From Collinsella tanakaei (GTDB taxonomy: Bacteria > Actinomycetota > Coriobacteriia > Coriobacteriales > Coriobacteriaceae): 64,000 nt of DNA. Where the stretch lies: positions 248,001-312,000 of the forward strand of contig NZ_JAUDCO010000001.1 in the NCBI RefSeq assembly GCF_030373545.1, in the 5' to 3' direction. The position numbers were made by a program, and so were the translations under genes. This document shows, in pieces, positions 4,060 to 10,364 of the stretch (positions are counted from its first letter, which is position 1; the number at the start of each line of letters is the position of its first letter). The notes below the pieces were generated by a model, which was given only the letters and a program-made list of their open reading frames with translations, ran no database searches and had not been told where the DNA came from.

Positions 4060-4149
4060 TGAAAGAGCGCTGAAAGCACGCAACCTTTTCACCGAGAGCG
4101 CATAACCGTTGAGGCACACCTATGCGGCCTCAAATCCTTTCAGAATCTT

Positions 4150-4250
4150 TCACCGACTTTTCCACAGGTTACGTTGAAAGTGTTAATAACTTTTCAGCGC
4201 TTTTCTGAACTTTTCAACAGATTGGGAAAAGTTGTTGAAAACTGCGCGGC
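4150..4250. other. oriC: oriC, left half (DnaA-box cluster upstream of the GHKL-dnaA unit)
   Basis: AT-richer 100-bp patch with DnaA-box-like 9-mers: TTTTCCACA at 4158-4166, TTTTCAACA at 4211-4219, and the reverse complement of TTTTCAACA at 4233-4241. Genes diverge here (rpmH leftward, dnaA rightward), as expected at a replication origin. The rest of 3967-4306 holds the rpmH promoter and the upstream region of the GHKL gene; a TATCCT at 4265-4270 could be part of that gene's promoter but lacks a well-spaced -35. Confidence 0.7.
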
Positions 4251-4306: not shown

Positions 4307-5554
4307 ATGTCGGATGACTTCTACCCGTTTGTAGACTCGGGAGACCCCGCTCCCGACAACGCCCATCTGACGGGCGTGTCGGACGCGCTTGCGGCAGACG
4401 GCGGCACTACGCAGGAGACATCCCCTCAGCCGGACGCCGAGCGGGCGAGCTACGCCACCCGCATCGCCGTGTACGACGACATGCTCTCCACGCCGCGCGT
4501 CATCGTGGTGTCGCCCAAGGACGTGCGCACTTATCTGGAGGAGATCACCAACACCGTCTATCGCTGCATGAAGGAGCAGGGCGGCGGCATCTCCCTCATG
4601 GTCATCCGCGAGATTGTGGAAAACTTCATCCACGCCGACTTCGTCGAGCCCATCATCTCCATCCTGGACGACGGCAACACCATCCGCTTTGCCGACCAGG
4701 GACCGGGCATCGACGACAAGGAGCGGGCGTTTGAGTTCGGTGTCACGAGCGCCGACCGCAACCAGAAGCGCTACATCCGCGGCACGGGCGCGGGTTTTCC
4801 CATGGTCCAGCAGTATCTGGAAAACGCCGGCGGCGCCATATCGATCGAGGACAACCTCCATCAGGGCACCGTGGTGACGGTGACGATCGACCCGGTCCGC
4901 GCCGGCGAGGTCGAGGCGGCAGCAGCCCGCGGAGCGGCGGTCCGCAGCTCGCATGCACACGACGCACGCGGGGCTGCGCAGCCCGCCGCCGCGTCCGCGC
5001 AGGTCGCGCCCATGATGCCGCAGCAGACAGCCTACCCGACGGCCCAGCAGGCGTATCAGGCAGCCCAACAGCCGTACCCGGCGGCGCAGCAACCCTATCC
5101 GACAGGATGGGGATACCCCGGGGCCGGGGCCATGCCCGCCGCCCCACAGCCGTGGGGTGCCATGCCGAGCGCCGTGCCAGGTGCCGGAACGCCTTGGGGC
5201 GTCGAGGGCGGCGCGCAGCCGTGGGGCGCGGCGGCACCGGCGCAGGCATGGGGAGCCGCCCCCAGCGCGGGCGCCATGCCGGGCGCACCCGTACCGTCAG
5301 CGACGCGGGCCGGCGTATACGTCTCCGAGCGCGGCGCGCAGGCCCTCTCCTACCTCGCCGCGGGCGGCAGCGCCGGACCGACGGACCTCGCCGGGACTTT
5401 CGGCTCGTCTGCGCCCACGTGGTCGCGCGAACTCAAGGCGCTGGCGCAAAGCGGTCTGGTGGTAAAGCACGGCCAGAAATGGTTTGCCACCGAGGCGGGC
5501 GGCGCGTGGATTCGCCAGCAGCACACGGAAGGCGGAGAGGTGACCCATGGATAA
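4307..5554 (+). CDS. GHKL (histidine-kinase-type) ATPase fused to a C-terminal winged helix, coupled to dnaA
   Basis: 415-residue protein of unknown function. Residues about 60-195 form a stand-alone GHKL ATP-binding domain: N box REIVENFIHADF near 101-112, G1 box DQGPGI near 130-135, G2 box GTGAGFP near 159-165. No dimerisation/phosphoacceptor domain or membrane segment is seen. A long Ala/Pro/Gln/Tyr/Trp-rich linker (about 215-330) with repeated QQPYP and QPWG motifs follows, then a C-terminal segment (about 335-405) that looks like a winged-helix DNA-binding domain. The ATG at 4307 is chosen over an upstream TTG (4295); neither has a clear ribosome site. The 3' end overlaps dnaA by 8 bp, so the two are almost certainly cotranslated. 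It could be an RsbW-like anti-factor, but no partner is visible here. I do not assign a function. Confidence 0.8.
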   Translation: MSDDFYPFVDSGDPAPDNAHLTGVSDALAADGGTTQETSPQPDAERASYATRIAVYDDMLSTPRVIVVSPKDVRTYLEEITNTVYRCMKEQGGGISLMVIREIVENFIHADFVEPIISILDDGNTIRFADQGPGIDDKERAFEFGVTSADRNQKRYIRGTGAGFPMVQQYLENAGGAISIEDNLHQGTVVTVTIDPVRAGEVEAAAARGAAVRSSHAHDARGAAQPAAASAQVAPMMPQQTAYPTAQQAYQAAQQPYPAAQQPYPTGWGYPGAGAMPAAPQPWGAMPSAVPGAGTPWGVEGGAQPWGAAAPAQAWGAAPSAGAMPGAPVPSATRAGVYVSERGAQALSYLAAGGSAGPTDLAGTFGSSAPTWSRELKALAQSGLVVKHGQKWFATEAGGAWIRQQHTEGGEVTHG

Positions 5555-7214
5555 CGAAGCGAGGCTTCTGCTCGACGACGCGATCGCGTGCTGCCAGCGC
5601 GACGGGCTCGACGCGCGCCTTATCAATATGCTCGCGAGCGCACGGGCGCTCACGCTGACCGAAGACGCCCTCACCATCGAGGCGCCGAGCCGGTTTGCCT
5701 ACTCCTACCTGGTTAAACAGCGGGACGTCATCGAGCGCTACCTCTCTGAGATTGCGTTTGCGCAGCTCGCGCTCAACGTGACCGTGCCGGAGGCACCCGC
5801 GGGCACCCCCACGTCGCGCACGGAGGCCGTGCCGGCCGCAGCAGAGGGAGCCGCCGAGGCCACCGCGACGGCGGGCAGTACCGCACCGGCGCGCCATGCG
5901 GGGCCGCTGCTCGCCGATACGCGCGAGGCGGCGGACCGCAAGGTCAACGTGACCAAGACCATGTCCGAGGCCGATTTCCGCACCATGATGGAGCGGATGA
6001 AGCAGGACGGCGGCACGGGCGCGAGCGCGGGACCTGCCGCACCGGCCCCCGCACCGGCCGAACCTGCCGCCCCGAGCGCAGCCGAGGATGCGACCGAGTA
6101 CCCGTCGGTCGGCGTCAACTCCAAATTCACCTTCGACAACTTCGTGCTCGGCGACGAGAACCGCCACGCCTACCAGTCCGCCGCGCGCTTCGCGGCCTTT
6201 GCGGACGAGCCGGGGCAGTGCACGAGCCTGTTCATCTACGGCAACTCGGGCCTGGGCAAGACCCACCTGCTGTTTGCCATCAAAAACTACCTGGCGGCGG
6301 AAAAGCCCTACATTCGCGTGAAGTACGCCAACAGCCAGGCCTATATCGACGACTACATGCGCGACCTGGGAGCCCAGCGCGGCCCCGGCGAGCCGATCAT
6401 GCGCGAGTACCGCACCGCGGACGTGCTGATCATCGACGATATCCAAAACATCATCGGCCGCCAGGCCTCCATCGAGTTCTTCTTCCAGCTGGTCGACGAG
6501 TTCATCCGCGAGAACAAGAAGATCGTCATCGCGAGCGACCGCGCGCCCAAGAAACTCGGCATGGACGAGCGCCTGACGAGCCGCTTCAACTCGGGCATGC
6601 TCTGCCTGGTGTCCGAGCCGAGCTTTGAGACCAAGTACCGCATCCTCAAGTACTACTACGAGAACATGATCTGCTCGGCGACGAACGTCCCGGCAAGCGC
6701 CGGCGACCTGTCAATTCTGGACGGCATCGCGCTCGAGGAGGGCAAGCTGACCGACGACCACCTGCGCCACATGGCCGAGATCTCGGGCAACAACATCCGC
6801 GAGCTCGAGAGCTTCTGTGAGCGATGCGCCGGACTCTCCTTCGAGAAGGAGCAGGCGGGGCGCGAGCTCACCGCGACCGACATCGACGCGATCGCCGACG
6901 AGTACTTCGACACCGCCCACAAGGTTGTGCGCGTCGAGACGATCCAAAGTGTCGTCGAGGAGTTCTACCATGTGAGCCACGAGGATATGATCGGCCGTAA
7001 GCGCTCGAAGAACATCGTGTTCCCGCGCCACGTGGCCACCTACCTCGTCAACTCGATGTGCGAGATGTCGCTCAAGGCGGTCGGCGCGGCGTTTGGACGC
7101 GACCACACCACCGTCATCCACAGCATCGAGAAGGTCGAGACCAAGATGAAGGAGGATGCCCGCTTTAAGGAAGAGATCCAGCAGCTCAAGAACATCATCC
7201 TCATCAAGTCGTGA
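5547..7214 (+). CDS. dnaA: Chromosomal replication initiator DnaA
   Basis: AAA+ initiator that binds DnaA boxes and opens oriC. The 555-residue protein has an N-terminal domain I (about 1-80), a long Ala/Glu/Pro-rich domain II (about 80-195), the AAA+ core with Walker A GNSGLGKTH near 233-241, Walker B VLIIDD near 294-299 and the Arg-finger segment LTSRF, and domain IV ending with the DnaA-box-binding signature GRDHTTVIH. Several core positions differ from textbook DnaA, matching the non-canonical TTTTC(C/A)ACA boxes around it. It overlaps the preceding GHKL gene by 8 bp and is flanked by the two halves of oriC. Confidence 0.97.
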   Translation: MDNEARLLLDDAIACCQRDGLDARLINMLASARALTLTEDALTIEAPSRFAYSYLVKQRDVIERYLSEIAFAQLALNVTVPEAPAGTPTSRTEAVPAAAEGAAEATATAGSTAPARHAGPLLADTREAADRKVNVTKTMSEADFRTMMERMKQDGGTGASAGPAAPAPAPAEPAAPSAAEDATEYPSVGVNSKFTFDNFVLGDENRHAYQSAARFAAFADEPGQCTSLFIYGNSGLGKTHLLFAIKNYLAAEKPYIRVKYANSQAYIDDYMRDLGAQRGPGEPIMREYRTADVLIIDDIQNIIGRQASIEFFFQLVDEFIRENKKIVIASDRAPKKLGMDERLTSRFNSGMLCLVSEPSFETKYRILKYYYENMICSATNVPASAGDLSILDGIALEEGKLTDDHLRHMAEISGNNIRELESFCERCAGLSFEKEQAGRELTATDIDAIADEYFDTAHKVVRVETIQSVVEEFYHVSHEDMIGRKRSKNIVFPRHVATYLVNSMCEMSLKAVGAAFGRDHTTVIHSIEKVETKMKEDARFKEEIQQLKNIILIKS

Positions 7215-7445
7215 GCATGTTGAAAACTGTTGGAATAGGACGGGAAAAGATGTTGGAAAGCTCGCCGGCACCGTGGAAAGCAACCCCGAGCGATAGCGCC
7301 GGTGGAAAACATGGGGAGTTTTCCACAGCATGCCCGTGCGTCCGACAATATCCTGACGCAGGCAAAACGACAGTTTTCCACAGCGTCGACACGCTTATTA
7401 CTATTGTTTGTTAGATATATATACAGAAGATAGAAAAGAAGGGAC
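7215..7445. other. oriC: oriC, right half (dnaA-dnaN intergenic DnaA boxes and AT-rich element)
   Basis: Contains TTTTCCACA at 7319-7327 and 7374-7382, the reverse complement of TTTTCAACA at 7218-7226, and a one-mismatch reverse box at 7301-7309. It ends in an AT-rich stretch at about 7392-7440 (including TTAGATATATATAC) suited to duplex unwinding. The arrangement with dnaA between two box clusters resembles the bipartite oriC of Bacillus. Confidence 0.78.
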
Positions 7446-8679: not shown

Positions 8680-9807
8680 GTGGGCATCTTCGCGCAGCGT
8701 CTGGTCGCACATGATTTTCGGAGCTACGAGTCGTTTGAGCTGGAGCTCGACGAGGGCATCACCGTGCTTGTCGGGCCCAACGCCGCCGGCAAGACCAATC
8801 TGGTCGAGGCGCTGCAGCTGCTCACGGCCGGTCAGTCCTTCCGCCGTCCCTCCCCTGTCGACCTCGTGCGCGACGGAGCCACCCGCGCCGAGCTCGCGCT
8901 TTCGCTTGCGGGTGACGGCCGCCGCCTCGACATGGGGATGGTTTCCGAGCGCGGCCGCCGCGCCTTTACCCGCAACGGCAAGCGCGTCCCCGCCTCCGGC
9001 ATCCGCGGCGTGCTGCCGAGCGTGCTGTTCTGCCCCGACCATCTGGACATGATCAAGCGTTCCGCGAGCGTGCGGCGTGCGGCTCTCGATGACTTCGGCG
9101 TGCAGCTCAACGAGAGCTACGCGCAGCTCGTCTCGACCTACGAACGCGCGCTCGAGCAGCGCAACAACCTGCTGAAGGACCGGTTTGCACCGCGCGACCT
9201 GCTGAGCGCGTGGGACGAGACGCTCATCACCGCCGGCGCCTCGGTGCTGGTACACCGTCTGGCGCTCCTCGAGCGCGTCCGCGCGCACCTCGTTGAGGTC
9301 TACGCTTCCATCGCTCCACGTGAAACGGTCGACGTCCGCTACCGCGCGTCGGTGGGCGATATCCCGACTGAGTCATCGCGCGATCGTGACGCGGTCGCCG
9401 GCTATCTGGCTGCGGCGTTGGCAGAGACGCGCGAGGAGGAGACGCGCCGCGGTATGACGTTGGTCGGACCGCATCGCGACGAGATCGTGTTTTTGATCGA
9501 CGGCCGCGAGGCGCGCTCGTTTGCCAGCCAGGGGCAGCAGCGCAGCCTGGTGCTGGCGTGGAAGATCGCCGAGGTCGAGGTGACGCGCGACATTCTGGGC
9601 TACAACCCCCTGCTGCTGCTCGACGACGTGATGAGCGAGCTGGATGCATCGCGCCGCGAGGCGGTCGTGCGCTTCATCGCCGACGAGATTCAAACCGTCA
9701 TCACCACGACCAACCTCGGGTACTTTACCGACGAGCTGCTGCGCCGCGCCCACGTGGTGCGCATCGGCGCGACCGAACCGGAGCACGAGGGTGGTGAGCT
9801 GGGGTGA
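8680..9807 (+). CDS. recF: DNA replication and repair protein RecF
   Basis: SMC-like ATPase that helps load RecA at single-strand gaps. 375 residues: Walker A GPNAAGKTN near residues 32-40, ABC-type signature region GQQRSLVLAWK near 285-295, Walker B LLLLDDVMSELD near 310-321. The start is GTG at 8680 preceded by GGGGG at nine bases. Its stop overlaps the next gene by 4 bp (GTGA), so the pair is translationally coupled. Confidence 0.96.
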   Translation: MGIFAQRLVAHDFRSYESFELELDEGITVLVGPNAAGKTNLVEALQLLTAGQSFRRPSPVDLVRDGATRAELALSLAGDGRRLDMGMVSERGRRAFTRNGKRVPASGIRGVLPSVLFCPDHLDMIKRSASVRRAALDDFGVQLNESYAQLVSTYERALEQRNNLLKDRFAPRDLLSAWDETLITAGASVLVHRLALLERVRAHLVEVYASIAPRETVDVRYRASVGDIPTESSRDRDAVAGYLAAALAETREEETRRGMTLVGPHRDEIVFLIDGREARSFASQGQQRSLVLAWKIAEVEVTRDILGYNPLLLLDDVMSELDASRREAVVRFIADEIQTVITTTNLGYFTDELLRRAHVVRIGATEPEHEGGELG

Positions 9808-10364
9808 CGCAGTCGAGGCGGTTCGGTGAGACGCATTCTTTGGCGGACTTTCTGCCCGCCGAGCGCCATCGTATCCTCGATCAGGCGAGCGAGACCCGCC
9901 GCGCCCAGATGCATGCCGCCGAGGCGAGCCGCGACGTGTACCGCGCGTGGAACGAGGTCTGCGCCGGCACGCGCGAAGGCGCGCATGTGACCGGCCTGCA
10001 CTACGTGCCCGAGAGCAACGAGCTGATCGTGTACGCCGACGGTTCCTCATGGGTGGCCGAGCTCACCATGATGCGGGAGATCATCCGTGCGCGCATGTAC
10101 CGCCGCGGTGTGGATATCGCAAACATAAAAGTGCAGCTCACACGTCCGGGCTACACGCCGCATCGCATAAAAAGCGCCCGCGCCGCCGGTGCGGCGACCT
10201 CATCGCGTAAGCAGGCTGCCCCTGCCTGCCCGCTGACGCCCGCCGAGGAGACGGCGCTGGAGGGCGAGGTCTCCCCCATCGAGGACCCGCGCCTGCGCGA
10301 CGCCCTCAAAAAAGCGATGAAAGCCAGTCTCGAGCACAAAATCATCAACAAGGACCAAACATAG
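9804..10364 (+). CDS. DUF721/DciA-like protein
   Basis: 186-residue protein of the DUF721 family. Relatives encoded after recF in actinobacteria are related to DciA, a loader or partner of replicative helicase DnaB; that role is inferred here from family and position. The conserved part is the middle segment (about 40-110) with W-N-E-V, GLHYVPESNELIVYAD and SSWVAELTMMREIIRARM. The C-terminal third is basic and low-complexity. The start is GTG at 9804 overlapping the recF stop. It sits between recF and gyrB. Confidence 0.82.
   Translation: MTQSRRFGETHSLADFLPAERHRILDQASETRRAQMHAAEASRDVYRAWNEVCAGTREGAHVTGLHYVPESNELIVYADGSSWVAELTMMREIIRARMYRRGVDIANIKVQLTRPGYTPHRIKSARAAGAATSSRKQAAPACPLTPAEETALEGEVSPIEDPRLRDALKKAMKASLEHKIINKDQT

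Follow-up and report, generated by a model that had tools for sequence, protein, structure and literature searches.

Gene layout at the dnaA locus

In the window, the whole 64,000-nucleotide stretch of Collinsella tanakaei DNA that was analysed, the minus-strand genes jag, yidC, rnpA, and rpmH precede a non-coding stretch, which is followed on the plus strand by an ORF for a protein with a GHKL ATP-binding domain and a winged helix (the GHKL gene), dnaA, dnaN, recF, a DciA gene, and gyrB/gyrA (Table 1). The stop codon of the GHKL ORF ends at position 5554 and the ATG of dnaA lies at 5547, giving an overlap of 8 bp. An ORF overlapping dnaA to this extent and located between oriC and dnaA had been described in the sequence-only reading, and both the ORF and the overlap were confirmed. 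The position of the ORF start (4307) is backed by an alignment of 26 Coriobacteriaceae proteins in which the initial residues are conserved. The home genome contained one full match to the protein, together with three weak ones (4.6e-6 or higher) to the ATP domain found in other proteins, and with an improved profile, exactly one match at 1e-20 was found in each of the 15 genomes tested. Long combined frames (1035 aa, with a stop inside) had suggested a GHKL–DnaA gene fusion, which was ruled out because in the loci concerned (L014, L016, and L018) the two genes share a frame but are distinct, a stop codon lying between them. Farther downstream, the ORF after recF (9804–10364) encodes DciA of the helicase-loader type (PF05258, 3.7e-6, over the cut-off).

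Table 1. Features of the GHKL gene, dnaA, and the flanking origin region (window coordinates)
Feature	Position	Strand	Description and basis
Upstream array	4083..4245	+	DnaA-box-like sites and TTTCA repeats; conserved in Coriobacteriaceae
Upstream DnaA-box-like sites	TTTTCCACA 4158; TTTTCAACA 4211 and 4233	minus strand	strand given for 4211 and 4233; near-match scan
GHKL–winged-helix gene	4307..5554	+	415 aa; sequence, ORF call, Pfam, orthologues
N-terminal tail, residues 1-20 (MSDDFYPFVDSGDPAPDN..)	4307..4366	+	modelled as disordered, pLDDT <50
GHKL ATP-binding domain, residues about 50-195	4454..4891	+	PF02518, models, folds
N box, residues 102-110	4610..4636	+	EIVENFIHA; 118-protein comparison
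G1 box, residues 130-135	4694..4711	+	DQGPGI; 118-protein comparison
G2 box / ATP lid, residues 157-165	4775..4801	+	IRGTGAGFP; 118-protein comparison
Low-complexity linker, residues about 217-334	4955..5308	+	Pro/Ala/Gln/Tyr-rich; model
Winged-helix domain, residues about 338-409	5318..5533	+	model, folds, 118-protein comparison
Shine-Dalgarno-like stretch for dnaA	5531..5540	+	purine-rich, within the end of the GHKL gene; sequence
dnaA	5547..7214	+	555 aa; its first 8 bp belong to both genes
DnaA boxes between dnaA and dnaN	7218..7382 (+)		7218 minus, 7301 minus, 7319, 7374
Candidate origin unwinding element	7374..7435	+	DnaA box, GC-rich spacer, TTATTACTATTGTTT (7395-7409), AT-rich stretch

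Domain structure and ATP site

The proposed architecture, a GHKL domain joined to a winged helix by a Pro/Ala/Gln/Tyr linker, was borne out by a PF02518 match, a disordered linker in the model, and a confidently modelled winged helix. The HATPase_c family (PF02518) matched residues 99–195 of the window protein (7.3e-12; 46.2 bits against a cut-off of 26.4) and all 42 aligned members at E 0.01 or better, and no NCBIfam model reached its cut-off among the matches listed. When the ATP site was compared in 118 distinct proteins, N106 and H109 of the N box and D130 and G132 of the G1 box were present in all of them, E102, A110, and G134 in 117, the lid glycines G159, G161, and G163 in 117 (with one gap), and R or K158 in 116. 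Thirteen columns were invariant in the 42-member alignment. Degradation of the ATP-binding residues in homologues was thus looked for and not seen among the 118 proteins, and the near-invariance of the site is a strong sign that ATP binding is under selection. The E102-x-x-x-N106 pattern is that of GHL ATPases and SpoIIAB rather than of histidine kinases. The GHKL gene itself contains a perfect DnaA box (4615–4623, minus strand), which is spelled out by the codons for the conserved N-box residues V-E-N.

In the AlphaFold model built with 26 sequences, the winged helix had a pLDDT of about 97, which answers the call for a structure prediction of the C-terminal domain, and the GHKL domain mostly 70–93 with a poor lid. 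The full model had a mean pLDDT of 63.5 and a pTM of 0.44, with both the N-terminal tail and the linker disordered (linker residues 236–334 under pLDDT 50). The GHKL domain modelled alone gave a moderate model (mean pLDDT 70.6, pTM 0.72, ATP lid <50). The linker is long in Coriobacteriaceae, and measures 19–24 residues at the 10th–25th percentile of the 118 proteins. In the window protein, the winged helix scored below the Pfam gathering scores (HTH_IclR, 17.9 bits vs 22), whereas in other members it was clear, with TrmB (best 4.1e-9) and HTH_IclR each matching 29 of 42. It aligned to MarR-type winged helices with Z of 11–13 over roughly 70–90 residues and matched a PhiH1 repressor-like protein in a profile comparison (8.6e-7). 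Its conserved positions include T371 (102/118) and R374 (109/118), which are recognition-helix positions, as well as L379 (114/118), and its net charge has a median of only +1 (range −6 to +6). The GHKL protein is probably DNA-binding.

Eleven of the first 20 residues of the N-terminal tail were invariant in the 26 Coriobacteriaceae sequences (alignment A3), which makes the tail a candidate short interaction motif; as it is invariant yet modelled as disordered, it suggests that the protein has a protein partner as well. The DDFYPF in this tail is similar to the tip of SSB tails, which we treat as a lead only.

Linkage to dnaA

The sequence-only reading would have fallen had the gene been missing beside dnaA in relatives, but the adjacency turned out to be maintained across Coriobacteriia and far outside that class. 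The gene downstream of the GHKL gene, on the same strand, was dnaA in 147 of the 157 loci fetched and in 108 of the 118 that were left after duplicates were removed. The other ten distinct loci were unreadable, nine of them stopping ≤368 bases from where the contig ends and one being interrupted by a scaffold gap (a run of N); in two of the ten (from genomes G341 and G374), dnaA lay at the opposite end of that contig. The readable loci represent 31 families, 12 in the class and 19 outside. In Coriobacteriia, for which a check of the conservation of the pair had been proposed, dnaA was the next gene in every readable locus that has the GHKL gene.

The spacing between the two genes, counted with automatically chosen starts, was short (median 16 bp): among 107 distinct loci, the genes overlapped in 14, were 0–30 bp apart in 55, 31–100 bp in 31, and >100 bp in seven, which means that 69 of the 107 overlapped or lay ≤30 bp apart. 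The exact 8-bp overlap occurred in three distinct loci, namely in the window genome, L006, and L043. Because the genes overlap in only 14 of the 107 loci, strict translational coupling is not a family trait, and the stoichiometric work with DnaA that had been suggested on its account is weakened with it. The pairwise distances of the GHKL proteins and the DnaA proteins were correlated (Spearman 0.69, 65 proteins), which fits joint vertical descent and would equally be produced by shared phylogeny alone.

Distribution among genomes

We searched for the gene in genomes of the Actinomycetota, which is the taxonomic scope of the results below; because these searches scored only the first 4–6 candidates per genome, some members may have been missed. 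In the near relatives, 32 of 39 genomes (own genome included) matched at E 1e-40 or better; at E 0.001 the number rose to 36, including four weak or partial matches. In Coriobacteriia, 272 of 296 genomes matched at 1e-12. The matches in the 32 near relatives and the 272 class genomes show that the GHKL ORF is not a chance ORF. Named loci carrying the gene come from Collinsella, Enorma, and their kin. In the Actinomycetota sample, 155 of 396 genomes matched at 1e-10 (44 within the class and 111 outside), and at least one of the 111 outside-class matches is not the dnaA-linked gene, since the dnaA locus of that genome (L203 of G459) lacks a GHKL gene.

Absence was checked in 24 genomes without a match, comprising 20 of the 24 class negatives (those listed) and four from the near-relative set. 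Sixteen of them also had no DnaA match at 1e-20, and their assemblies therefore probably lack the locus. Of the eight with a DnaA match, one was cut off at a contig end and seven truly lacked the gene; because these seven Coriobacteriia genomes retain rpmH and dnaA without it, the GHKL gene is evolutionarily dispensable. Outside the class, 16 negatives were picked among those listed and 15 regions were fetched, none of which contained a GHKL gene of this family before dnaA (dnaA was seen in 14 and rpmH in 12; in the fifteenth, L212, dnaA was not found by the script). Judged from these sequence comparisons, the GHKL gene is of old origin, has been retained widely, and has been lost on occasion. 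In genome G305, a weak ATPase-like ORF that is divergent and matches the family profile at 2.8e-6 lies before dnaA (L200:2006–2683, in the orientation of dnaA).

Organization of the origin region

The motif TTWTNCACA occurred nine times in the window, against 0.97 expected, and no shuffle reached nine. DnaA-box arrays lie on either side of the GHKL–dnaA pair and both are conserved in Coriobacteriaceae, which places the GHKL gene inside a bipartite origin region. The stretch between dnaA and dnaN ends with a DnaA box, a GC-rich spacer, TTATTACTATT, and then an AT-rich run, and TTATTACTA was found in 18 of the 26 aligned dnaA–dnaN intergenic sequences. TTATTACTATTGTTT is DnaA-trio-like, the whole arrangement corresponds to that of the basal unwinding system in Bacillus subtilis, and an unwinding element is likely to lie between dnaA and dnaN. 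The GHKL gene had been placed between oriC and dnaA. This holds as far as the upstream DnaA boxes are concerned, but boxes and the likely unwinding element are also present on the far side, between dnaA and dnaN. GC skew, computed within the window, did not locate the origin.

A search for a winged-helix operator, based on 8-mer enrichment upstream of the gene in four groups, yielded none apart from DnaA boxes and gene-start or family signals. In the genomes without the GHKL gene, which form too small a set for a test, the DnaA-box array was still present, and the idea of an operator lost together with the gene was dropped.

Comparison with known protein families

The closest description of the GHKL protein is a regulator of the DIP2311 type, with a GHKL domain and a winged helix, minus the extra N-terminal domain of DIP2311. 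DIP2311 of Corynebacterium diphtheriae (3lmm) shares the GHKL-like fold followed by a winged helix; it is an AlbA_2/Schlafen, HATPase_c_4, and winged-helix protein of the COG2865 type, and its N-terminal AlbA_2 domain is absent from the window protein according to Pfam. The comparisons gave no connection between DIP2311 and dnaA. With a second-look aligner, whose ranks hold among the matches listed, DIP2311 was the clear best match for the GHKL domain (Z 12.5, 3.3 A, 142 residues; next 8.4), and with the full model (Z 12.4 over 146 residues), it shared the top with MarR-type winged helices. Foldseek placed histidine kinases first (EnvZ chimera, 8.5e-5; 3lmm, 4.9e-3).

The two-domain combination also appears in member L131, in which the phage family phrog_12156, named 'DNA helicase', covers both the GHKL domain and the winged helix (1.1e-6). 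Some other readings were set aside. A phage origin was rejected, as no phage match at 1e-3 was found for L131. Plasmid matches covered <60% of L131 and look like the ATP domain only, and the PADLOC matches that would have made this a defence gene concern the winged helix only.

In terms of a candidate role at DnaA and the origin, the protein can be likened to known DnaA regulators such as Hda, SeqA, YabA, SirA, Soj, and DiaA/HobA, none of which is known to be a GHKL protein. No paper on a GHKL gene beside dnaA was found in the open-licence literature, and the passages found in PMC13270200, PMC4148983, and PMC4255298 mention no such gene.

Proposed role and alternative explanations

The analysis shows the two domains, an ATP site that is intact, conservation of the winged helix, and a lasting one-directional, short-spaced linkage to dnaA. 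Of the interpretation given in the sequence-only reading, the GHKL and winged-helix assignment, the preserved ATP residues, and the adjacency to dnaA have therefore stood, but strict coupling has not and the placement relative to oriC was only half right. The reading that we prefer, with an even chance of being correct, is that the protein is an ATP-switched regulator that belongs to the dnaA operon and binds DNA of the origin or the dnaA promoter. The GHKL gene would be cotranscribed with dnaA; the GHKL domain would bind ATP and probably hydrolyse it, or close its lid and dimerise; the winged helix would bind DNA close by, most likely in the origin and promoter region from rpmH to dnaA; and the nucleotide state would set, in one direction or the other, the expression of dnaA or the assembly of DnaA at the bipartite origin. 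This regulator is supported by the linkage to dnaA, the short spacing, the ATP site, the winged-helix fold, the single copy, and the upstream DnaA-box array. It is weakened by the lack of a singled-out DNA target and the survival of the box array after gene loss, by the seven class genomes and 14 outside-class genomes that have dnaA without the gene, and by the low charge of the winged helix and the moderate GHKL model. A bolder and rather doubtful version is that a GHKL ATPase dedicated to DnaA constitutes a previously undescribed class of initiation regulator, shared by deep Actinomycetota and lost in others, whose ATP state, read via an origin-bound winged helix and the N-terminal tail, would license or block the assembly of DnaA at the bipartite origin.

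The protein could instead be a kinase or anti-factor similar to RsbW and SpoIIAB, in which the GHKL domain would bind, or phosphorylate on serine, a partner such as DnaA or a sigma factor, with a secondary part for the winged helix. Like these proteins, it has a small stand-alone GHKL domain with an E-x-x-x-N box. In addition, the lid is preceded by a basic residue (R or K158), the protein aligned to SpoIIAB folds (Z 8.1 and 7.5–7.8), the anti-sigma F model TIGR01925 matched 17 of 42 members (up to 4.2e-7), and the invariant, disordered tail suggests a protein partner. We nevertheless consider this unlikely: with TIGR01925, the window protein reached 15.8 bits, far short of the cut-off (135), with histidine-kinase models doing equally well or better, the C-terminal winged helix is absent from RsbW and SpoIIAB and is the better conserved second domain here, and, in the window and the readable relatives, the flanking genes are rpmH and dnaA, with no sigma or anti-anti-sigma gene of an RsbW/SpoIIAB-type operon. 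It is also quite unlikely that the protein is a transcription factor, local or global, that takes no part in replication and is carried as a passenger in a very stable chromosomal region. The rpmH–dnaA–dnaN neighbourhood is generally stable and linkage alone can thus outlast function, and real losses have occurred, as in the seven class genomes; against this, it is the only gene kept in this slot across 31 families, always on the dnaA strand and mostly at ≤30 bp.

Two further explanations were weighed. A remodelling ATPase or clamp of the MutL/GyrB kind, which would load or unload DnaA or the helicase at the origin and not be a sequence-specific regulator, might be suggested by the MutL chains among the sequence-profile matches to solved structures (1.3e-5 and weaker) and by the E-x-x-E-N box, which resembles that of MutL. 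It is very unlikely, as the best profile and fold matches were kinases and DIP2311, not MutL or GyrB, and no transducer domain was seen after the GHKL domain in Pfam or the model, the linker and winged helix being there instead. Lastly, the HATPase_c fold and G boxes are shared with two-component histidine kinases (KinB, HK853, EnvZ, and PhoQ), and the best sequence-profile match to a solved structure was the sporulation kinase KinB (2.8e-11). An orphan catalytic domain of such a kinase is nonetheless highly improbable, given that no HisKA/DHp phosphoacceptor domain was matched by Pfam in the window protein at E 1 or among the 25 families listed for the 42 members, that no receiver gene lies next door, and that the first N-box position is E, whereas histidine kinases have N there.

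Carried in front of dnaA by numerous deep-branching Actinomycetota, the GHKL gene is a good candidate for a novel factor that regulates the start of chromosome replication. Control of initiation is poorly known outside Escherichia coli, Bacillus, and Caulobacter, and to our knowledge it is almost unstudied in Actinomycetota outside the class Actinomycetes. A single-copy ATPase beside dnaA in many families offers one gene to study, with the lineages that lack it as natural controls. Should it act on DnaA, GHKL domains would be added to the AAA+ and ParA-type ATPases among the switches of initiation in bacteria; should its action be confined to the dnaA promoter, it would be a dedicated regulator of dnaA in gut and soil bacteria.

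DnaA domain I and SOS-box-like elements

DnaA domain I (PF11638) was considered as a partner of the GHKL protein. It was undetected in the window DnaA (residues 1–85, 5547–5800) and in L034, which both come with the GHKL gene, and in L161, L163, and L164, which do without it; it was present in L141, L116, L114, and L127, which carry the GHKL gene, and in L162, which does not, and just below the cut-off in L159, again without the gene. There is no clean link, domain I being both absent and present with and without the GHKL gene, and this candidate was dismissed; the uneven detection indicates that domain I has diverged within the class.

In the window, no SOS-box-like palindrome was found near dnaA. 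Elsewhere, the LexA/SOS-box-like palindrome CGAACNNNNGTTCG was found upstream of the GHKL gene or dnaA in 13 of 82 regions (shuffled sequences predict 1.2), being exact in L167, L178, L180, and L181 and having one mismatch in nine further loci. These are mostly from Coriobacteriia outside the order of the window genome, and several then carry a conserved AAAACCGCAGGTCAGA-like element. The palindrome or the AAAACCGCAGGTCAGA-like element was also seen in L163 and L164, which lack the GHKL gene. As a sequence pattern, this hints at SOS control at some origins.
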